Shown here: piece by piece, positions 4,354 through 49,396 of the stretch | How the letters are laid out: each line of letters opens with the position of its first letter | Numbering within the stretch: position 1 is the first letter of the stretch | Source of the DNA: Crocinitomicaceae bacterium | Lineage (GTDB): Bacteria; Bacteroidota; Bacteroidia; Flavobacteriales_D; Crocinitomicaceae | Assembly: GCA_029254025.1 (NCBI GenBank) | Contig: JAQWYK010000018.1 | Location: forward strand, 1-64,000 | Direction: 5' to 3' | Length of the DNA: 64,000 bases | Translations under genes and position numbers: made by a program | The notes under the pieces: model-generated | The model's database searches: none | What the model saw: only the letters and a program-made list of their open reading frames with translations | Told to the model about the DNA's origin: nothing

Positions 4354-7300
4354 CTATCTTTTTAGATAAACATAACCAGTATATAATTTTCCTTTATCTG
4401 GAGTATTGTCAAAACCTCCTAGAACAATTTGATAGTAATAAGTACCCTCTGGTAACTGATCTCCACCAACATTCATTACATTTTGAGATTGACCTGACCA
4501 CTCATTTTGATAATTATTATTCTCGTATACTTTGGCACCCCAACGATTGAATATCGTGATTTCTGTTTCCGGGTATGCTAGTATATTGTCTATTACAAAG
4601 AAGTCATTAATTCCGTCATTATTTGGTGAAATACCCTGAGGAACACTAATCTCGCAAAGATCAATTGTCACATTGAACGAACTTACATTTTGACATCCAT
4701 AATCACCAGTCACAACAACATCATAAATACCTGTTTGACTGGACTCTGCAAAGTAAACATTGTAAATAGAGTCATTTTGAAGTAAAATGTTAGTATCATA
4801 AATCCAATCATAAAAGAAATTCTCATTATAATTAGTTATCGAAACATCGAACGGATCACTTTCACATGCGATTACATCATAAATAGAGAACTCAGCAGGA
4901 GTTGGTAAAGGATGAACATACACAACAAACGAAACAGGATTTGCTAAATTGCCTGATGCATCCTCAGCGTTGTATGTTACGGTCGTGTACCCTGTAGGTA
5001 ATTCAATACCTGGATCACTCGTTGATGTTACAACTACATTAGGACATGCTTCATCTATTAATGGGAGATCCCAAGTTACAGTATCAAACTCACAGAATAC
5101 AAGTGTATCAGTTGGAAGACCTAAGATAATCGGAATTACAGTGTCTAACACGTCTATTTCGAATGAGCATTGATCCGTATTACCGCCTAGGTCAGTTACA
5201 ACATACGTCACTGTCGAGAGTCCTACAGGGAAGAACGTACCACTCGTATCACTCGATGTAACGTTAAAAGAACAATTGTCGGTAGCCACAGGTTCAGCCC
5301 AGAACACCTCCACCCCACAGTCAGTAGCTGTAGAATAAACAATTGTATCAATAAAAGGACAAATGATCACCGGCGGAACTGTATCTAAAACTGTCACTTC
5401 GAATGAACAAGTCCCTACATTTCCTTGAGCATCAACGCCTGCATATGTCACAGTATTAGTTCCACCGAAAAATACGTGCCCACTAACGTCATTGAAGCCA
5501 AAAGCAGCAGAAGTATCAACCGTAGCTCCTGAAATTGTCCATAATACAGCAATGGTTGAACAGTTATCGGATACACCAACGGTGTCTATACCAAATACAT
5601 TTGTCTCACATAACCCTGGGTCCGTGTATACCAATGTATCTGCTGGACAAATCACAACTGGAGCTTCAACATCCTCAACATTCACTTCGAATTGACAACT
5701 AGCAGTATTACCAACTGTATCAACTACGGTATAGGTTATAATACTTGTTCCCGTATTAAATAGAGTTCCACTAACATCATTGATTCCTGATATAGCCGAT
5801 GTATCTATTGTTGCTCCACCAATAACCCAAGTTTGCGAGCTGTACGAACAATTTTCAAATACAGCTAGTTCTAGTCCATTCACAATAGCAGCACACAATC
5901 CTGGGTCTGACCCTACTAATGTATCAGCAGGACAAGTAAGTACAGGAGCAACTGTATCTTGCACAATAACCTCGAAAGAACAAGAGGCTGAATTACCAGC
6001 AGTATCAACTATAACATAAGTTACTACTGTCGTATCTAAATTGAATACTTCTCCACTCGCATCGTTTATTCCTGTTAATGGACTATCATTTACAGTCGAT
6101 CCAACAAACGACCAGAATTGGTCAACAACAGTACAGTTATCATCAATAACTGGGGTTAACCCATTTACGTCAGTATCACATGTCACTAATGATGCATATA
6201 CAATGGTATCTGATGGACAAATTATTGATGGGGAGATGGTATCTTCCACAATTATTTCAAAAGAACATGAGGCAGTATTTCCTGCTGTGTCCACTACTGT
6301 ATATGTGACCAATGTAGTATCTAAATTAAAGGTTTGGCCACTTGCATCATTAATCCCATTCGAAGGACTATTTCCAGAAGTTGCACCAGAAAATGCCCAC
6401 AACTGATCAACGATTGAACAATTGTCACTTGATGAGATAACATTAATATTAGTTACGATTGCGTCACAAACAGCCAAGTCGGTTGAGACAAGGGTGTCAT
6501 TCGGACAAACTAGAATTGGAGCAATTGTATCTTGAACAATTACTTCGAAACTACATGATGCCGAATTTCCAGCGGTATCTATAATCGTATATGTAACTAA
6601 TGTGGTGTCAAGATTGAACGTCTGTCCACTTGCGTCATTGAATCCTACAACTGCACTAGAGTTTACAGTAGAACCACTAAATTCCCACAAATGAGCTACT
6701 ACAGAACAATTGTCTGTTGAACTAACAACGTTAATATCATTAACAACAGCATCACAAACTCCAATTTCCGCAGGTACAACAGTATCATTTGGACATATTA
6801 CAATTGGCGCTACAGAATCATTGACTATAACATTGAAGGAACATGAAGCCACATTACCAGCAGTATCCGTAACAACATATGTTACAAAAGTAGAGTCCAA
6901 ATTGAACGTTTCCCCGCTAGCATCATTGAAACCTACTCCAGAGCTCGAAGCAACAGTAGATCCATTAAAGGTCCATGTCAAAGAAACCGTTGAACAATTG
7001 TCATCAATTGATGGAGCAATGTCGTTAACAACAGCGTCACATGATGATAATGATGTAAACACACTTGTATCTGATGGACAAATTATTGTTGGACTTATTG
7101 TGTCTTGTATTATTACTTCGAAACTACAAGTAGCAATATTTCCAGCTGTGTCAATAATAGTATAAGTAACTAACGTCGTATCCAAATTAAATGTATTTCC
7201 ACTAGCGTCGTTAATACCATTTGACGCACTATTTCCAATAGTTGATCCACTGAAAGTCCAAAGTTGGTCAACTACTGAACAGTTATCATCAATAATCGGT

Positions 7301-10300
7301 GATAAACCATTAACAACTGCGTCACAAACTGCTAAATCAGTTGGTACAATTGTATCATTAGGACAAATTATTGTTGGACTGATTGTATCTTGAATAATTA
7401 CCTCGAAACTACAAGTTGCACTATTACCAGCTGTATCAATAATCGTGTATGTGACTATCGTTGTATCTAAATTAAATGTGTTTCCACTTGCATCATTAAT
7501 ACCTGTTGCTGCGCTATTTCCAATAGTTGATCCACTGAAAGACCATAACTGATCAACCACAGTACAATTATCATCGATTATAGGTGATATGCCGTTAACA
7601 ACTGCATCGCAAACTGCTATATCAGTAGGAACAATTGTATCACTAGGGCACGTAATCGTTGGACTAATCGTATCTTCAACAATAACCTCGAAACTACAAC
7701 TTGCACTATTACCAGCTGTATCAATAATGGTGTAGGTAACTAATGTTGTATCAAGACTGAATGTCTGTCCTGAAGCATCATTAATACCTACTGGAGGACT
7801 CGAATTAACTGAAGCTCCTGAGAAATCCCATAATTGACTTACAACAGTACAGTTATCATCAAAAGCAACAATATTAATTCCATTGACAATTGCATCACAC
7901 ACAGCAATATCAGTAGACACTGTTGTATCATTAGGACAAGTTAATGTAGGAGGAGTTGTGTCTTGCACAACTACCTGGAATGAACATGAACCAGTATTTC
8001 CTGACGTATCTACTACCGTGTAAATTACAATCGTAGTATCAAGGTTAAATGTATTACCTGATATGTCATTGAAACCAACACCAGCACTCGAAGCAACAGT
8101 AGCCACACTAGCATCCCAAAGTTGAGCTACCACCGAACAATTGTCATCAAAAACGGGAGTTAATCCATTCACTACTGCATCACACACAGCTAAATCCGTT
8201 GCAACTACTGTATCACTAGGACAAATTACTGTAGGAGAAATTGTATCTTCAACTATCACTTGGAATGAACAAGAAGAAGATAAGCCAGCTGTGTCAGTAA
8301 TAATATAGGTAACCAACGTTGTGTCTAGATTAAACGTTTGACCGCTTGCATCATTAATACCTGTTAAAGCACTTGCTCCAGAGGTAGCACCAGCAAAGGT
8401 CCAACTTTGATCGGTTACAGTACAGTTTTCAATAAATGAAGGATTGATTCCATTGACAATTGCGTCACAAACTGCTAAATCAGTTGATACAACTGTATCA
8501 TTTGGACATATTATCAAAGGAGCGGTGGTATCTTGAACAACGACTTCAAATGTACATGTCGACGTGTTTCCAGAAGAGTCAGAAACTACATATGTCACAA
8601 CTGTTGTATCCAAATTGAACGCTTGACCACTTATGTCATTGATAATAGTTGGATCAATACTTGAAGACACTGTTGCTAATGCCATTGACCAAGACAACCC
8701 TTCAACACCGCAGTTATCGTCTATAACAGGGGTAAGTCCATTTACAATAGCATCACAGACTCCTGCATCTGTTGCAACGGTAGTGTCGTTTGGACAAATT
8801 ATCGTTGGAGGAACAGTATCTTGTGTAATAACATAAAACGAACATGTTCCAACATTTCCCGCAGTATCAAGTACAGTATAAGTAACTAAAGTAGAATCTT
8901 GATTGAACAGCTGTCCACTTGCGTCATTAAATCCTGTTGGAGCTGAACTTCCAGTTGTTGCACCTGTTAAATCCCAAGTTAATGAAATTACGCTACAGTT
9001 ATCATCCAAAGAAATAGCCGCTATGTCGTTAACAATTGCAGTACAGGTGGAAGGATCAATGTTTAAAACAGTAGTATCATTAGGACAAACGACAACAGGG
9101 ACCTCAGTATCTTGCACAATTACTTCAAAAGAACAAGTCGCACTATTTCCGGCCGTATCTACTACGATATATGTAACTAACGTTGTATCTAAATTAAATG
9201 TATTTCCACTTGCATCGTTTATTCCAGTCAATGGAGACGAACCAGACGTAACTCCTGAAAAAGACCAAGTTTGCTCAATTATCGAACAGTTATCAGAAGC
9301 AATCGGAGCAATACCATTAACAATAGCATCACATACGCCTAAATCATTTGAAACAACTGTGTCATTAGGACAATCAATGATTGGGTTTTCATTGTCTTGA
9401 ACAACAACTTCAAATGAACAAGATGCAGTGTTTCCAGCATTATCAAATACCTCATAAAGCACTAGTGTAGTATCTAAGTTAAAGACTTCTCCGCTTGCAT
9501 CATTTATACCAGTTGGTGCGCTAGCGGAAATTGTTGAACCCGTAAATGTCCAAAGTTGAGCGGTAACAGCACAATTATCATCTGTGGAAACTGGTGCAAT
9601 ACCATTTACTATTGCCCCACAAGATAATGGGTCATTTGAAACAACAACATCTGCAGGACAAATTATAGTAGGAGGTTCATTATCAATTACTATCACGTTG
9701 AAAGAACATGTTCCAGTATTGCCAGCTGTATCTGTCACGGTGTACGTCACTATGGTTGTGTCACCGTTAAATATGGAATTACTTGCATCATTAAACCCTG
9801 TAGCTGGAGAATTTCCAGTTGTAGCACCTGTAAAATCCCATGTTAGAGATATTACACTACAGTTGTCAGCAGTTGAAAGAGCAGCAATTCCATTTACCGT
9901 TGCCTCACAAGTACCTGGATCAACATTCACAACAACCTCAGATGGACATGTAACAATAGGGTTTTCAGTATCCTGAACAATAACATCAAAAGAACAAGTT
10001 GCAGTATTACCAGCCGTATCTACTATTACATATGTTACTAATGTAGTATCCAAATTGAAAGTAGAACCACTTGCATCGTTAATTCCTGTTGCGAGTGAGT
10101 TTCCAGCAGTAGCTCCAGAAAACGACCATGTTTGTTCAATAACTAAACAATTATCAGTAGAAATTGGAGCTATACCATTTACTACAGCGGCACATATGCC
10201 TGGATCATTTGAAACAACCGTTTCACTTGGACAAGTAATAATTGGAGCTTCTATGTCCTGAACAATTACATTGAAAGAACAAGTTGCGGTATTACCTGAA

Positions 10301-29189: not shown

Positions 29190-30467
29190 ATGAACAATTA
29201 TAAAAACGACCTTTCTTTTGCACGCGAATGTGACTCAAAGGACCCACTAGCAAAGTACCGAAGTGAATTTTACTTCCCAACATTTCATGAAAAGGATGTA
29301 ATCTACTTTACGGGAAACTCTTTAGGCCTGCAACCGAAGCGAACAAAATCATTCATTGAACAGGAATTGAACGATTGGGCAAAATGGGGGGTTGAAGGAC
29401 ATTTTGAAGCGCAAAACCCATGGTTTTCATACCATGAATTATTGACCAGTAAAGCAGCAAAAATAGTTGGTGCATTGGATAAAGAAGTTGTCATTACTCA
29501 TTCCTTAACCACCAACCTGCACTTGTTAATGGTTTCATTTTATCGACCAGAAGGAAAACGATTTAAAATACTATGTGAAGGAAAAGCATTTCCGTCCGAT
29601 CAATATGCGCTTGAATCTCAGGTGAAATTTCATGGTTATGAACCGAAGGATGCTATCCTGGAAATATTCCCAAGAAAAGGTGAACATCTGATTCGCGAAG
29701 AAGACATCCTTGATACGTTAGCTCGGCATGGTGAGGAAATCGCTTTAGTAATGATTGGGGGAGTGAACTATTATACGGGACAACTTTTCGACATGAAATC
29801 CATTACCGATGCTGGACATAAAGCTGGTGCGGTGGTAGGTTTCGATTTAGCTCATGCTGCAGGAAACGTGGAACTTTACCTACACAATTGGGGCGTTGAT
29901 TTTGCGGCATGGTGTTCATACAAATATTTGAATTCTAGTCCAGGAGGCGTTTCCGGTTTGTTTGTCCACGAACGTCATGCAAACAAACCCAATTTATCGC
30001 GTTTTGCTGGTTGGTGGGGTCATGACAAGGATCTTCGTTTCAAAATGGAACCCGGATTTCGACCGATGCAAGGTGCAGAAGGTTGGCAATTGAGCAATGC
30101 CCCAATACTCGGAATGGCAGCGCATTTGGCTTCTTTAACGATTTTTGACGAAGTTGGAATGAAGGCGATTTCTGCAAAAAGAAATGACCTAACAGCTTAC
30201 CTCGAATTTATTATACACGCTATTTCTTCAAGTAGCGAGAAGGTCAATTTTGAAATCATTACACCAACTGACAAAACAAAACGTGGCGCGCAACTCTCCA
30301 TCTTGGCCCACGGCCAAGGAAAAGATTTATTTGACGCTCTTTCGGGGTCTGGAGTTGTTGCAGACTGGAGAGAACCTAATGTAATTCGCATTGCTCCAGC
30401 TCCACTCTACAATTCATATGAAGATGTATATCATTTTGGACAACGATTAAAAGCTGCTATTTGCTAG
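29190..30467 (+). CDS. kynU: Kynureninase
   Basis: A 425-residue PLP-dependent enzyme that cleaves kynurenine or 3-hydroxykynurenine to anthranilate or 3-hydroxyanthranilate. Family segments: [12 protein letters not shown] near residue 40, the FDLAHAAGN Asp of the PLP site (about 218-225) and the Schiff-base Lys245 in [13 protein letters not shown]. It starts the kyn series, with 1 bp to the next small gene. With the monooxygenase downstream it would supply 3-hydroxyanthranilate for NAD synthesis from tryptophan. I see no kynA or nbaC-type gene in the window. Confidence 0.96.
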
Positions 30468-30468
30468 T

Positions 30469-30678
30469 ATGACAATACAACAGCTCATTCAAAAGCGCTT
30501 CACGGGAACATTAAACAATGAAGCAGAATACATCGAACTACTTGTTCAAGTATTCGCTGTGCTTGTATTAGGGCTAGTACTTTGGCGTTTAATGGTGTTG
30601 TTCCACAAACGAAAAAATGCACAACGCAAAAGAAGCAGTTATTTTGATACAGAATATGGAAGAAAGTGGAGAGGCTGA
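30469..30678 (+). CDS. Small single-span membrane protein in the kyn series
   Basis: A 69-residue protein with one transmembrane helix (about 24-45, VQVFAVLVLGLVLWRLMVLF) followed by a basic tail (HKRKNAQRKRSSYF). It begins right after the kynU stop. No family recognised. I treat it as real because of its tight spacing and coherent membrane topology. Confidence 0.55.
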   Translation: MTIQQLIQKRFTGTLNNEAEYIELLVQVFAVLVLGLVLWRLMVLFHKRKNAQRKRSSYFDTEYGRKWRG

Positions 30679-30844
30679 ATAATGAAAAGAATTCTTGGTT
30701 CCATGCTCGGCAAACTCAATCCGCGAAATCTTTCTTTTGAATCATTCTATATTTCCATACATAGGCTTCCATATCGGTAAAAGCTTTATTTTTGAAAAAG
30801 TAGAACAAGCCTTTTGATCGAGTGTTTGATAAAAAAGGTAACAA

Positions 30845-32188
30845 ATGGGTAACATGAAAGTAGCAGTCATTGGCGCAGGATTAGTCGGTAGTTTACATGC
30901 CGTTCTTCTTGCTAAAAAAGGTTTTCAAGTAGATGTTTTTGAGCGCAGACCAGATTTACGAAAAGCAGATGTTATAGGTGGAAGATCTATCAATCTTGCA
31001 CTTTCAAATAGAGGCTTCAAAGCGCTTGAAATGGCTGGTATTGCGGATGAAATTCGAAAAATGTGTATTCCTATGTACGGACGTAAAATGCACGATATTG
31101 AAGGCAACCTTACCTATCAACCGTATGGAAAGGAAAATGAAGCTATTTATTCTGTTTCACGAGGTGGTTTGAATCAAACACTCATGAATTTAGCTGATAA
31201 TTATCCAAATATCACCTATCGCTTTAATCATAAATGCGAAGATTTAGACTTGGATACTAATACCATATCATTCACAGATACTGCCTCGAAGGAAACTGTC
31301 AGCTGCACATATGACCATATTTTTGGTACAGACGGGGCATTCTCGGCAGTGCGCAATCGGATGATGAAAACCCCCATGTTTAACTATTCTCAGGACTATT
31401 TATCACATGGCTACAAAGAACTTGTAATTCCTCCAAACGCGGATGGAACACATCGGATAGATAAAAACTGTTTACACATCTGGCCAAGAGGTGAGTTTAT
31501 GCTTATCGCATTACCGAATCTCGATGGTAGTTTCACAGTGACGTTGTTCTTCCCAATGAAAGGAGATACATCTTTTGAAAGTATTAATACCGGCGAGGAC
31601 GTGATGAAATTTTTCAACGCTACCTTTCCCGATGCTGTGGAGGTAATGCCTACACTCAAAACAGATTACTTCGAAAATCCAACTTCTACTTTGGTCACTG
31701 TTCGATGTAGCCCTTGGAACTATGAAGACAAAGTAATGCTGATGGGTGACGCAGCACACGCTATTGTTCCATTCTACGGCCAAGGTATGAATTCTGGGTT
31801 TGAAGATTGCTCGGTATTTTCAGAAATGTTCGACGCCAATAATGGTGACGCACTAAAATTATTTGAAGACTATTCTAACCAGCGTGTACCAGACGGAAAT
31901 TCGATTGCCGATTTAGCCTTGTACAATTATATCGAAATGCGGGATTTAGCGGGAGATACCGATTTCTTGTTGCGTAAGAAAATTGAACGAAAATTCAGTG
32001 ATTTGTATCCTTCCAAATGGTTACCGTTATATTCGCAAGTTACATTTAGTCATATTCGTTATTCAGATGCAATTGCAAACGGTGATCGTCAGCGTAAAAT
32101 AATGGATGAAGTGATGGCTATGGAAAACATTCATACTCAATGGGAGGATAATTCGGTAATGGAAAAAATATTATCTTTAGTAGAATGA
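30845..32188 (+). CDS. kmo: Kynurenine 3-monooxygenase
   Basis: A 447-residue FAD-dependent hydroxylase turning kynurenine into 3-hydroxykynurenine. It carries the FAD motif VAVIGAGLVGS, the DGAFSAVR segment and the flavin ribityl motif MGDAAHAIVPFYGQGMN. Unlike the mitochondrial enzyme no clear C-terminal membrane anchor is present. The start may be the ATG at 30845 or the one at 30854 (MKVAVIG). A possible -7 box TATTTTTG lies at 30787-30794, so it could have its own promoter in addition to read-through from kynU. Its stop overlaps the next start (ATGA). Confidence 0.95.
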   Translation: MGNMKVAVIGAGLVGSLHAVLLAKKGFQVDVFERRPDLRKADVIGGRSINLALSNRGFKALEMAGIADEIRKMCIPMYGRKMHDIEGNLTYQPYGKENEAIYSVSRGGLNQTLMNLADNYPNITYRFNHKCEDLDLDTNTISFTDTASKETVSCTYDHIFGTDGAFSAVRNRMMKTPMFNYSQDYLSHGYKELVIPPNADGTHRIDKNCLHIWPRGEFMLIALPNLDGSFTVTLFFPMKGDTSFESINTGEDVMKFFNATFPDAVEVMPTLKTDYFENPTSTLVTVRCSPWNYEDKVMLMGDAAHAIVPFYGQGMNSGFEDCSVFSEMFDANNGDALKLFEDYSNQRVPDGNSIADLALYNYIEMRDLAGDTDFLLRKKIERKFSDLYPSKWLPLYSQVTFSHIRYSDAIANGDRQRKIMDEVMAMENIHTQWEDNSVMEKILSLVE

Positions 32189-33081: not shown

Positions 33082-33911
33082 CACTTTCTTACCTAACTAG
33101 ATTAACTGCTAATTCTTGTATCGCGGTAATGTTCTTTTGGGTATCTTCATTGACATACGGACAAGGTAAAGTAGATGGATTTTACAAAGGAAAAGGAACC
33201 ATTGAAGTAGGAATAGGAGGTGGACTCCAATTCGACAAAGTTTATTTTGCCGGTACGACCAAAATAAATTTAACTCGAAACATTCGAACCGCTGCGCTCT
33301 TCATTGGAACAGGAATAACCGATAAATTTGACCTTTACCTGAATATACCTGTGGTATCCATTGGAGATGTCAAATCCGTGCAGGACGGTAGCTTATTTCT
33401 AAAGTATCGGCTTGCTCAAGCCAAACTCAAGGGAGGGGACTTAACCTTTAACCTGGCATCTGGTTTCTCAGGCAACTTAACCAATTATTCCACGAGTGGG
33501 GTTAATGCTATTGGTCAACAAGCTAAAATCGTTGATATTCGACCAGTAATTCATTACCAAATTTATGGATGGTTTGCCACACTACAATATGCCTACAATT
33601 ATAAATTTGATCCTGTTACGTCGGCATACTCGGGAAGCATTAAAGTAGGTTACGCCGCGGCTAAATACTACGTTGATCTTTGGTATGAAAACCAATATAC
33701 TCCGGGAGGCTTCGACTACTTGGGTACACCAGCACCACCTTCATTTCGCGAGTTAGGAGTGAACTATGATCGCATTGGAGGAACGATTTATGTTCCAATC
33801 GGAAAGCGATTTGGTATTTATTCAAATGTTGGTTATACACTTAGTGGAAGAAATATTGGACAAGGGCTTTACGCTGGTGCGGGATGTGTTTTAAAAAATT
33901 TATGCTATTAA
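33078..33911 (+). CDS. Predicted outer-membrane beta-barrel protein
   Basis: A 277-residue exported protein with a signal peptide (about 1-28) and alternating strands with Gly turns (IEVGIGGGLQFDKV, LYLNIPVVSIGDV, TFNLASGFSGN, GIYSNVGYTLSGRN). It resembles transporter-like or meta-pathway phenol-degradation type barrels in style, but I cannot name a family with certainty. It overlaps the previous gene by 4 bp and its last 12 bp overlap the 3' end of the opposing lycopene cyclase/dioxygenase gene. Confidence 0.65.
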   Translation: MTLSYLTRLTANSCIAVMFFWVSSLTYGQGKVDGFYKGKGTIEVGIGGGLQFDKVYFAGTTKINLTRNIRTAALFIGTGITDKFDLYLNIPVVSIGDVKSVQDGSLFLKYRLAQAKLKGGDLTFNLASGFSGNLTNYSTSGVNAIGQQAKIVDIRPVIHYQIYGWFATLQYAYNYKFDPVTSAYSGSIKVGYAAAKYYVDLWYENQYTPGGFDYLGTPAPPSFRELGVNYDRIGGTIYVPIGKRFGIYSNVGYTLSGRNIGQGLYAGAGCVLKNLCY

Positions 33912-35933
33912 ATTAGTTTTTTTGTAATAGAAGTGCATTATCACACAGTGTGGAAAACTTATACTTGATATGAACACAAATATTAAAGACCAAAAATTGC
34001 TCATTTTGAGAATTTCTCCAAAATTTAACATAAATAATGCAAATAGTAAGAACGCACCAATATTATATAGAAGTGCCTTCTGAAAAAGCTGAGATGATGA
34101 TAAGGATAAACCCTTCTTAAGATGGGACCAAGCATTGAAACTATGCTGAAATATAAAATACAGCCAAAATGCGTGAAAAAGAGGAAGGAAAAGACCAAAA
34201 ATGAGTAAAGTAAGTAATCCTAATAAATTATTTCTAGCATGATTCATCTGGGTTAATACTAGGAAAAAGATAGAAAATAGAGAAAGTGGTATTTGATAAA
34301 AAATACTTTGGGCAAAAGTGAAACCAGTAAGATCAAAAATTAAATGAACTGATTCTTCCGTATGAGTAGATAGGATAAATACCAGAATGGATATTCCTGT
34401 GAAAAATGAGTATATCTTACCTAAAACGGACTTCGTTTCACCTCCTGCTTGAATCCATTCCGACTCACCAAAATGAAAAAATGAATACCCAAGAAAAAAT
34501 ATCAAAGCCAGCGTGGGGTTAAGCCACCAAACTAACAAGTTCAGTATCATTAACAGAATATATTTCGTGAGAAACAAGTACATTCGAGTATTACTATTCT
34601 TTGAAATTAAATAGTCTATAGCACCATGAGGAATACCAATAATAAAAAATCCTGTAATTAGAGAAGCATAACTATAATACGATTCTAAATAGGGAAAGTA
34701 CGTATCAGTTAACATATATAACAACACGAATATAGTGACTACAACAAACCTCCAAGAAATATAGTTCACAAGAACCCTTAATGAAGCATTCAAAAAAGGA
34801 ATTAATGGTAATTTTGAAAATATTTTAATCTCATCAAGTAGACTGGTTTTTTCATCTAGGAAGTTAAAAATAGTAATAATTGGAATCGAGCTAAATAACT
34901 TACTAAATATTCGTTTTCCAATAATAGGCCTAAAACATAAAATGAACAATAATAACTGATCATATAGACGAAATCTCTTTTTACTAGGTAACCCTATCTC
35001 ATTAAATCTATTTAAATTATTATTTTGAATTTTGTGGGTTACTAATTCTGCAAACTGATGCATATTCTTAAAACCATAACCCGTACTGGGTTTAATTAAA
35101 TTAGCACTAGCCCCTGTCCGCAATATTTTTGAAGAATTATGATGCGGAACCCTTGCATTAGTCATCGGTATTGAACCCGTCTCTTTATGAAGCACTCTGT
35201 AAGAACCATATTTTTCAGAAATGAAACGATCAAGTTGTTCTTCTGCATACTTTTTATCCAGTTTTTCGACACCAAACCGAGTAAATTCAATTAATGCAGA
35301 TTTTTTAGAAAAAGGAATAAGGTAAACAAATTGAGTAGATCCATTTTGCTCAACGCTAAAGTTCATCATTTCAAATACTTCCACATCAAAAGAATTTGAA
35401 TTACATTCAATATGAAAACCTAAAAAACTTTGATTCAGGAAAATTTCGTTCTTGCCCGTTAAGGTGATTTTCTGAGGACGACTATCAAAAATGTAATTAG
35501 CAAGATACGAGTTGGATGTTGTATTAATTGAATTAAGATAACTATTGGGAGTTATGTCCTCTACATAATCGCACACTAATTGAATATTACTTTTTTTGCT
35601 TATTTCTTCCTTCACAAAATCATAAAGATCTATGCTTCTGATATAATGATAAGGTTGACTATCTATACTTTTTATTGAATTATCACTCAATTTTATTTTA
35701 TCGAACCGGTAAGAAATAATTGAATCGAAATCTGAGACTATTTTTTCGTTATCATTTGCCCAAAAACAATATGTTTTATCATTTTCTGTTTTAGCGTCGC
35801 CCTCACAAATTAGGATTTTCTTGTTCGACGTTAATCCACTTTGAATCAATGAAAGTAGAATTAAACTGTTACTAGCTCCAAGTCCAATAAAAGCAAAATC
35901 ATGAACAACATCAGCCTTACTCAATTGATTCAT
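33900..35933 (-). CDS. Fused lycopene beta-cyclase (CrtY) and beta-carotene 15,15'-dioxygenase (Brp/Blh)
   Basis: One uninterrupted 677-residue frame with two complete enzymes. Residues 1 to about 383 are a CrtY-type flavoprotein lycopene cyclase: FIGLGASNS (15-23), FWAN (57-60), FDSRP (149-153), FLGFHIEC (170-177), IEFTRFG (215-221) and RTGASANLIKPSTGYGF (272-288), ending in the usual SLLDEIKIFSKLPLIPFL. Residues about 395-677 are a multi-helix Brp/Blh dioxygenase with the family His residues in GIPHGAIDY (His436), FFHFGESEW (His487), FQHSFNAWSH (His597, His604) and PHCVIMH (His662, His667). The protein should cyclise lycopene and cleave beta-carotene to retinal at the membrane, for the rhodopsin encoded just upstream. 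Elsewhere these are normally separate genes. Confidence 0.93.
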   Translation of the reverse strand: MNQLSKADVVHDFAFIGLGASNSLILLSLIQSGLTSNKKILICEGDAKTENDKTYCFWANDNEKIVSDFDSIISYRFDKIKLSDNSIKSIDSQPYHYIRSIDLYDFVKEEISKKSNIQLVCDYVEDITPNSYLNSINTTSNSYLANYIFDSRPQKITLTGKNEIFLNQSFLGFHIECNSNSFDVEVFEMMNFSVEQNGSTQFVYLIPFSKKSALIEFTRFGVEKLDKKYAEEQLDRFISEKYGSYRVLHKETGSIPMTNARVPHHNSSKILRTGASANLIKPSTGYGFKNMHQFAELVTHKIQNNNLNRFNEIGLPSKKRFRLYDQLLLFILCFRPIIGKRIFSKLFSSIPIITIFNFLDEKTSLLDEIKIFSKLPLIPFLNASLRVLVNYISWRFVVVTIFVLLYMLTDTYFPYLESYYSYASLITGFFIIGIPHGAIDYLISKNSNTRMYLFLTKYILLMILNLLVWWLNPTLALIFFLGYSFFHFGESEWIQAGGETKSVLGKIYSFFTGISILVFILSTHTEESVHLIFDLTGFTFAQSIFYQIPLSLFSIFFLVLTQMNHARNNLLGLLTLLIFGLFLPLFHAFWLYFIFQHSFNAWSHLKKGLSLSSSQLFQKALLYNIGAFLLFALFMLNFGEILKMSNFWSLIFVFISSISFPHCVIMHFYYKKTNLIA

Positions 35934-35955: not shown

Positions 35956-35983
35956 AGAGGTGCATTTAAAAAAATGCACCTCT
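35956..35983 (-). terminator. Terminator/attenuator between the rhodopsin and crtY-blh genes
   Basis: A perfect 12-bp stem (AGAGGTGCATTT/AAATGCACCTCT) with an AAAA/TTTT loop, followed on the minus strand by about six T. It lies 20 bp after the rhodopsin stop and 22 bp before the crtY-blh start, so it should end most rhodopsin transcripts there. Confidence 0.85.
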
Positions 35984-36003: not shown

Positions 36004-36732
36004 TTAGTCTTCGCTGCCTCTGCTTAAAGCATAAATAACTAAACCAAAACCAATTTTGTTAATCGCATCGGCAATGTTGTAAACGATATCCATTGCATGA
36101 GCCGCAGCTTCCGGATTTTCAACAAGCTGAACACCGAACAATCCACCCGGAGTACCTAATATGTATCCCAACGGATAAATAGCCCATCCAACAAGAACAA
36201 ACCACGCCAACACTCTCGTGGCTTTCGCAACCTGAGGACCGGCAGTTTGTGCCAATTTTGCAACTTCTCCAAACCAGATTAAGTAAACTATATAGAAGTA
36301 AGCAGCTCCAGAGATCACACCCCACAATACACTTCCGTCTCTGTCAAGAACTTCACCAGCATACCCTGTTAAGAGCATTACTAAAGAGGCAAATATTAGT
36401 TTCCATAGAAGACCAATCTTGGCACCAGCTTTCTTGGTGATTAAATAAAACTCAACACACATTAACGGAACTGTCAAAATCCAATCAACATAACGGAAAA
36501 AAGTTGGAGATTCTCCAGTTTCTAAATTGTAACTACGCATGTAGTAATAATGCACAGCTGCAATAAAGGTAATTAAACCAGATACTAGGAGAGATGTTCT
36601 CCATTTCTTAGAGGTATTGTTCAACTCAAAAAAGAAGAACACAGAAGCGGCCATCATAGCCATCGTTCCAATAAAGAACGTGAAAGCAACATAATTGTCG
36701 CTAGCGATAGTAGACATTGTTTCTAATAACAT
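36004..36732 (-). CDS. Proteorhodopsin, light-driven proton pump (green-type)
   Basis: A 242-residue seven-helix microbial rhodopsin. Aligned on RYVDWILTVPL, it has His61, the proton acceptor Asp83, Thr87, the proton donor Glu94 and the retinal-binding Lys226 in INKIGFGLVIY; these match His75, Asp97, Thr101, Glu108 and Lys231 of green proteorhodopsin. This DTE set marks an outward proton pump. The spectral-tuning position (GPR 105) is Met91, as in green-absorbing flavobacterial pumps. Gly138 stands where GPR has Phe152 and xanthorhodopsin Gly156, so a carotenoid antenna could bind. The first Met is 5 codons before another (MLLETM), and the true start may be either. The retinal-making gene follows after 70 bp. 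Confidence 0.97.
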   Translation of the reverse strand: MLLETMSTIASDNYVAFTFFIGTMAMMAASVFFFFELNNTSKKWRTSLLVSGLITFIAAVHYYYMRSYNLETGESPTFFRYVDWILTVPLMCVEFYLITKKAGAKIGLLWKLIFASLVMLLTGYAGEVLDRDGSVLWGVISGAAYFYIVYLIWFGEVAKLAQTAGPQVAKATRVLAWFVLVGWAIYPLGYILGTPGGLFGVQLVENPEAAAHAMDIVYNIADAINKIGFGLVIYALSRGSED

Positions 36733-48307: not shown

Positions 48308-49396
48308 ATGGTAAAGGCGATACGATTTTTTTTCAGTGTGTTGTTGATGATGATTTACAGTTCAGCGTTCGGAAGCGAACCTGAATATGACACCATAAAT
48401 CATACTCAAACTGAGTCATTAGATCTAAAAAGTAGCATTAAAGAACAAATAAATCATCACCTACAGGATTCTCATGACTTTCATTTATTTAGTGATGAAA
48501 CTACTGGGAAACATTATGGATTTCCGCTGCCAGTAATCTTGTGGGATGATGGATTACATGTGTTCATGTCATCTGAGTTTCACCATGGTGAAACTGTAGT
48601 TCAATCTGATGAAAAGTTCTACACCTTAAATCATGGGAAAATTTACAAAACAGATGCCGAAGGAACAGTCAATTATGATGCAGAACACCACCATGTTATT
48701 AACGAAAAACCACTAGATTTTTCAATAACGAAGAATGTTTTCATGATTTTCTTTGTTGGACTTCTATTATTTTTAATGTTGCGTTCAACTGCTCGTTCTT
48801 ACAAAAAACGAGGAGATTTACCGAGTGGAATAGGTAGGTTCTTAGAACCAATAATTGTATTTGTTCGAGAAGATATAGCTAAACCAAATATTGGTGCAAA
48901 ACACTATAAAAAATACATGAGTTTCTTGTTGACGGTATTTTTCTTCATTTGGTTAGTTAATTTATTCGGATTAACGCCAATTGGTGTAAATATTACTAAC
49001 AACATTGCTGTAACATTTGCATTGGCAGTAATGACCTACTTAATTACAACTTTTACTGCTAAAAAAGATTATTGGAAACATATTTTTTGGATGCCGGGTG
49101 TCCCAGTTCCTATGAAAGTAGTATTAGCACCTATAGAATTGTTAGGAACAATAATAAAGCCCTTCTCTTTAATGATTCGATTGTATGCAAATATTACTGC
49201 TGGGCATATAGTGATCATGAGCATCATAGGAATGATGTTCGTATTTCAAAACTGGATCGGAAGTTCACTTTCATTTATTTTAGCTCTGGTTCTAGGGATA
49301 TTAGAGTTGTTAGTTGCAGCGCTTCAGGCATATATATTCACTATGCTTTCAGCCCTATATTTTGGTTCTGCTGTGGAAGAGCACGACCATCATTAA
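48308..49396 (+). CDS. atpB: ATP synthase F0 subunit a
   Basis: A 362-residue membrane subunit that forms the proton half-channels. After a signal peptide-like segment (about 1-22) comes a His-rich periplasmic extension to about residue 135, as in other Bacteroidota, then the a-subunit core with the essential Arg in SLMIRLYANITAGHIV. The C-terminus is acidic and His-rich (EEHDHH). The length exceeds the 270-residue enteric type because of the N-terminal domain. Confidence 0.96.
   Translation: MVKAIRFFFSVLLMMIYSSAFGSEPEYDTINHTQTESLDLKSSIKEQINHHLQDSHDFHLFSDETTGKHYGFPLPVILWDDGLHVFMSSEFHHGETVVQSDEKFYTLNHGKIYKTDAEGTVNYDAEHHHVINEKPLDFSITKNVFMIFFVGLLLFLMLRSTARSYKKRGDLPSGIGRFLEPIIVFVREDIAKPNIGAKHYKKYMSFLLTVFFFIWLVNLFGLTPIGVNITNNIAVTFALAVMTYLITTFTAKKDYWKHIFWMPGVPVPMKVVLAPIELLGTIIKPFSLMIRLYANITAGHIVIMSIIGMMFVFQNWIGSSLSFILALVLGILELLVAALQAYIFTMLSALYFGSAVEEHDHH

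Follow-up and report, generated by a model that had tools for sequence, protein, structure and literature searches.

The opsin gene in the 64,000-nucleotide stretch of Crocinitomicaceae DNA analyzed here (the window) very probably encodes a light-driven outward H+ pump with a xanthophyll slotted at Gly138, a proteorhodopsin of Bacteroidota that belongs with NM-R1 and KR1 to the carotenoid-binding type. Opsins of this type are known; the part of the locus that deserves more attention is a two-cyclase arrangement that includes a fusion of the lycopene cyclase CrtY with the oxygenase Blh. Features are listed in Table 1.

Table 1. Features of the opsin locus, numbered along the window
Feature	Position	Strand	Basis and remarks
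Proteorhodopsin-type H+ pump gene	36004..36732	(-)	242 aa, start at residue 1 or M6; PF01036, 150 bits
Gly138 codon, fenestration residue (XR G156, Kin4B8 G153, GPR F152)	36319..36321	(-)	Alignment and ungapped register
Tyr190 codon (XR Y207, Kin4B8 Y204), conserved in carotenoid-binding rhodopsins	36163..36165	(-)	Alignment
Thr194 codon (aligned with Kin4B8 S208 and with the Thr of KR1 and EinA29G6), likely to contact the 3-OH	36151..36153	(-)	Alignment
12-bp hairpin and T run, likely (partial) terminator	35956..35983	(-)	Sequence, between the opsin gene and the fusion gene
Fused FAD-type lycopene cyclase (CrtY) and Blh oxygenase, putative retinal supply	33900..35933	(-)	PF05834 (131 bits) and PF15461 (95 bits) in one ORF

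Identity and family of the opsin

A preliminary description of the window had placed a rhodopsin with H61, D83, T87, E94, and G138 at this locus. All five residues were found, together with the retinal lysine K226 and the complete D/T/E motif. The reading frame is encoded by the minus strand; read on the plus strand, positions 36004 to 36732 contain many stops. PF01036 matched this ORF only, in the window and throughout the 2.7-Mb genome. Outward, light-driven H+ transport is predicted from the family and the motif. The gene for ATP synthase subunit a (PF00119) lies at 48308 to 49396, some 12 kb away from the pump gene, and kynureninase-like and kynurenine 3-monooxygenase-like genes of a tryptophan-to-NAD type route, judged by eye, occupy 29190 to 32188 near the opsin.

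An AlphaFold2 model built from 26 sequences (mean pLDDT, 81.6) contained seven TM helices. The top match of the model in the PDB was 9jou (E, 2.2e-17; TMq, 0.86; 62% identity), and green proteorhodopsin (GPR) ranked behind it. 9jou is NM-R1, a proton pump with zeaxanthin bound, and is the nearest solved structure to the opsin. At the sequence level, phmmer returned an E value of 1e-87 for 9jov, 1.7e-27 for xanthorhodopsin (XR; 3ddl), and 2.7e-23 for Kin4B8 (8i2z). Membership in the xanthorhodopsin family was rejected on this basis, the sequence being closest to the proteorhodopsins.

NM-R1 (9jou/9jov), about 62% identical to the opsin, is its best match in both fold and sequence and shares with it the Gly, the TM6 Tyr/Thr/Pro, and the DTE motif. 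The xanthorhodopsin of Salinibacter ruber and Kin4B8 have the window Gly and the Tyr in common with the opsin but belong to a different family, and XR has the hydrophobic residues Met/Ala at the positions of the opsin Thr/Pro. The pigment of xanthorhodopsin is a 4-keto carotenoid.

Opsins 85 to 92% identical to this one were also seen in metagenome-assembled genomes titled Methylotenera, Polynucleobacter, Myxococcales, and Bdellovibrio (L077, L136, L142, and L151), which may represent mislabeled bins, contamination, or transfer.

Register and conservation of Gly138

The preliminary description had also claimed a constant offset of 14 to GPR on the anchor residues, which places Gly138 at GPR Phe152 and makes it the equivalent of XR Gly156. 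The offset was indeed 14 at FRY and at GWAIYP, on both sides of TM5, and was the best ungapped register within that helix (score, 29; next best, 9). MAFFT opened a 2-residue gap in GPR within TM5, and the pairing of G138 with GPR F152 is therefore taken from the ungapped register; the GPR sequence used was verified at its key residues. In the multiple alignment, G138 fell in the column of XR G156 and of the Gly of Kin4B8, Gloeobacter rhodopsin (GR), and 9jov. The XR sequence used for this alignment matched the 3ddl chain over its full length, and the stretches of Kin4B8, GR, and 9jov were taken from computed alignments. XR F157 and T160 correspond to V139 and G142 in the opsin, with no small residue exchanged for a bulkier one at the positions compared around the opening. 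Both equivalences held, and a bulky side chain closing the opening, one of the findings named as speaking against the proposal, was not seen at these positions.

Gly was found at this position in 14/14 opsins of the same order (56 to 91% identity; from 59 genomes, mostly of the same family and order) and in 80/80 close relatives (genome_contigs; 83 to 92% identity), or in all 94 related opsins if the sets, which may have a few genomes in common, are combined. Such recurrence shows that the residue is not there by chance. The agreement of the 80 relatives is partly kinship, given their 83 to 92% identity; the set of 14 extends the comparison to 56%. A diagnostic Gly is present in all Bacteroidota proteorhodopsins of subtree I according to a 2026 paper (PMC13043013). 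The Gly is thus the norm of the clade and not a distinguishing mark of this opsin, and the idea that it is something special here was not supported, since it is general in Bacteroidota proteorhodopsins. The observation of Gly138 is correct, typical of Bacteroidota pumps, and already published.

A second opsin group of the order (L009 to L011, L013 to L015, and L017), 56 to 60% identical, keeps the Gly and has GYMC-MP or similar in place of GYxxGTP. These opsins are without the Thr, so that the contact to the 3-hydroxyl may differ there.

A candidate carotenoid-binding site

The pocket for the pigment ring in Kin4B8 is made up of Gly153, Tyr204, Ser208, and Tyr209; an S208A substitution lowered zeaxanthin binding to 2%, and Y209F retained binding with lower energy transfer (PMC12308411). 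The equivalent residues in the opsin are G138, Y190, T194, and P195, with the TM6 correspondence read ungapped as Y-x-x-G-[S/T]. Two members of the proteorhodopsin family, KR1 of Dokdonia eikasta and EinA29G6, share the binding-site Tyr and Thr with the opsin, the Thr standing at the position of Kin4B8 Ser208, and both bind lutein/zeaxanthin (PMC12308411). Compared at the binding-site residues, TM6 has Y190, I191, and T194 in the opsin, Y, M, and T in KR1, and Y, I, and T in EinA29G6. Y190 and T194 were invariant in 81/81 close homologues. A counterpoint to binding comes from the site of Kin4B8 Tyr209, which is Pro195 in the opsin, whereas KR1 and EinA29G6 have Asp or Glu there. Of the polar pair at Kin4B8 208/209, then, T194 is polar and P195 is not; 9jov likewise has Pro.

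In the proposed arrangement, the small Gly138 would leave a side opening beside the retinal ring, a xanthophyll, either zeaxanthin or a saproxanthin-like pigment with a single ring, would insert its 3-hydroxylated beta-ring into this opening, and the slotted ring would be gripped by Tyr190 and Thr194. The proposal of the preliminary description that the window Gly could admit a hydroxylated carotenoid gains support from Gly138, Tyr190, and Thr194, from NM-R1 as the nearest structure, and from the CrtZ gene of the host (see below). The case that such a carotenoid could bind is well supported, and the opsin probably has this capacity.

Xanthophyll genes of the host

In the host genome, the genes for CrtB and CrtI are clustered with one for an IPP isomerase (the last judged by eye). 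The genome further encodes CrtD, which scored above its NCBIfam cutoff, and, side by side, CruF (carotenoid hydratase), CrtZ (β-carotene hydroxylase), and a CrtYcd-type lycopene cyclase. No CrtZ was seen beside the CrtB/CrtI cluster. A PF04116 search of the genome yielded three lipid-hydroxylase-like genes, and a query with the CrtZ-like protein of a relative found the gene beside CruF; the possibility that the host lacks CrtZ was therefore rejected. With 162 aa, the CrtZ of the host shares 49% identity with the query, and it matched PF04116 by hmmscan. Either zeaxanthin or a monocyclic pigment resembling saproxanthin could be the product of these genes. In Nonlabens, myxol and zeaxanthin are made by a similar gene set that also includes CrtA-OH (PMC11855829).

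Possible role of a bound carotenoid

We infer for this opsin carotenoid binding, an effect by way of energy transfer or on the photocycle, and the identity of the pigment. Within this explanation there is close to an even chance that the bound carotenoid chiefly speeds the photocycle or stabilizes the protein, with light harvesting a minor matter. The closest structure, NM-R1, is a zeaxanthin-bound pump, and a 2025 Nature Microbiology paper on marine Bacteroidota (Fujiwara et al.) names photocycle acceleration in its title; the structure and the paper appear to come from the same study. Because work on marine Bacteroidota pumps is titled in this way, "antenna" may be the wrong term. On the other hand, the title of the preprint of the Fujiwara work names light harvesting as well, and measurements on Kin4B8, a xanthorhodopsin, showed energy transfer (PMC12308411).

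Since the Gly occurs throughout the clade, it may persist without pigment bound, and the opening could be a clade heritage that is lipid filled or empty in this host. The invariance of the Gly even in the opsins of 56 to 60% identity that have GYMC-MP and no Thr fits such a history; it is nonetheless unlikely here, as the genome retains CrtZ and the xanthophyll route, and both TM6 residues are unchanged in all of the close homologues. It is likewise improbable, and slightly more so, that the pump uses xanthophylls from other organisms, such as algae, instead of self-made ones: pumps of this kind bind lutein as well as zeaxanthin (PMC12308411), but this host has a hydroxylase of its own. A xanthophyll made by the host and bound at Gly138 is the reading that we prefer.

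A CrtY-Blh fusion next to the opsin

The next gene downstream of the opsin, 70 bases away, encodes the CrtY-Blh fusion of 677 aa. It scored above the cutoff of TIGR03753 and below those of TIGR01789/01790, and no other gene of the host genome matched PF05834. Five residues that look catalytic were invariant across 24 fusions: E216 in the CrtY domain and, in Blh, H436, H487, H597, and H662. The strong, terminator-like hairpin with its T run lies between the two genes, and much of the opsin transcript may stop there, which would leave less message for the enzyme.

Of 299 genomes sampled across the order, 67, belonging to four families, had the single-frame fusion. It was near the opsin in 48/80 loci, and several of the remaining loci stop at a contig edge. 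In three loci (L096, 6772 to 8893; L108, titled Sediminibacterium sp., 6767 to 8889; and L149, 6742 to 8818), crtY and blh are separate but overlapping, directly after the opsin, which possibly represents the state before fusion. The fused enzyme is 30 to 53% identical among hosts with opsins that are 83 to 92% identical (L074 to L152), which suggests different rates of evolution or transfer for opsin and enzyme.

No description of a two-domain CrtY-Blh fusion was found in the literature searched, the coverage of which was incomplete. A CrtI-CrtB-CrtYcd-Blh fusion of Thecamonas trahens, proposed to make retinal directly, likewise unites Blh with a lycopene cyclase (PMC10016063). That protein is eukaryotic, CrtYcd type, and of four domains, whereas the fusion described here has an FAD-type CrtY and two domains.

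Two cyclases and two proposed supply lines

The second cyclase (PF18916), which is of the CrtYcd type and unrelated to CrtY, was present in 21/21 tested genomes with the fusion, compared with 6/18 genomes with a free-standing CrtY (Fisher P, 5e-6, uncorrected for kinship). A rhodopsin was present in all 21 of the former and in 10 of the 18 latter genomes.

These gene contents suggest that a retinal line (CrtY-Blh) is separate from a xanthophyll line (CrtYcd, CrtZ, and CruF). Retinal would come from the fusion downstream of the opsin, and the xanthophyll would arise by the separate route of CrtB-CrtI, CrtYcd, CrtZ, CruF, and CrtD. We offer tentatively, at somewhat less than even confidence, the proposal that each of the two pigments of a single pump in these Bacteroidota has its own cyclase: the fusion would make beta-carotene and cleave it on the spot to retinal, and CrtYcd, CrtZ, and CruF would make the hydroxylated partner. 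Beta-carotene destined for retinal would be shielded from hydroxylation by CrtZ through the fusion, so that retinal and xanthophyll would not compete for one pool.

The opsin is another lineage of a widespread type with an antenna window, here with xanthophyll genes in the same genome, and the CrtY-Blh fusion beside it is less familiar. Co-occurrence of the fusion with the second cyclase makes it possible to test directly whether retinal and its companion xanthophyll may be supplied from unmixed pools.
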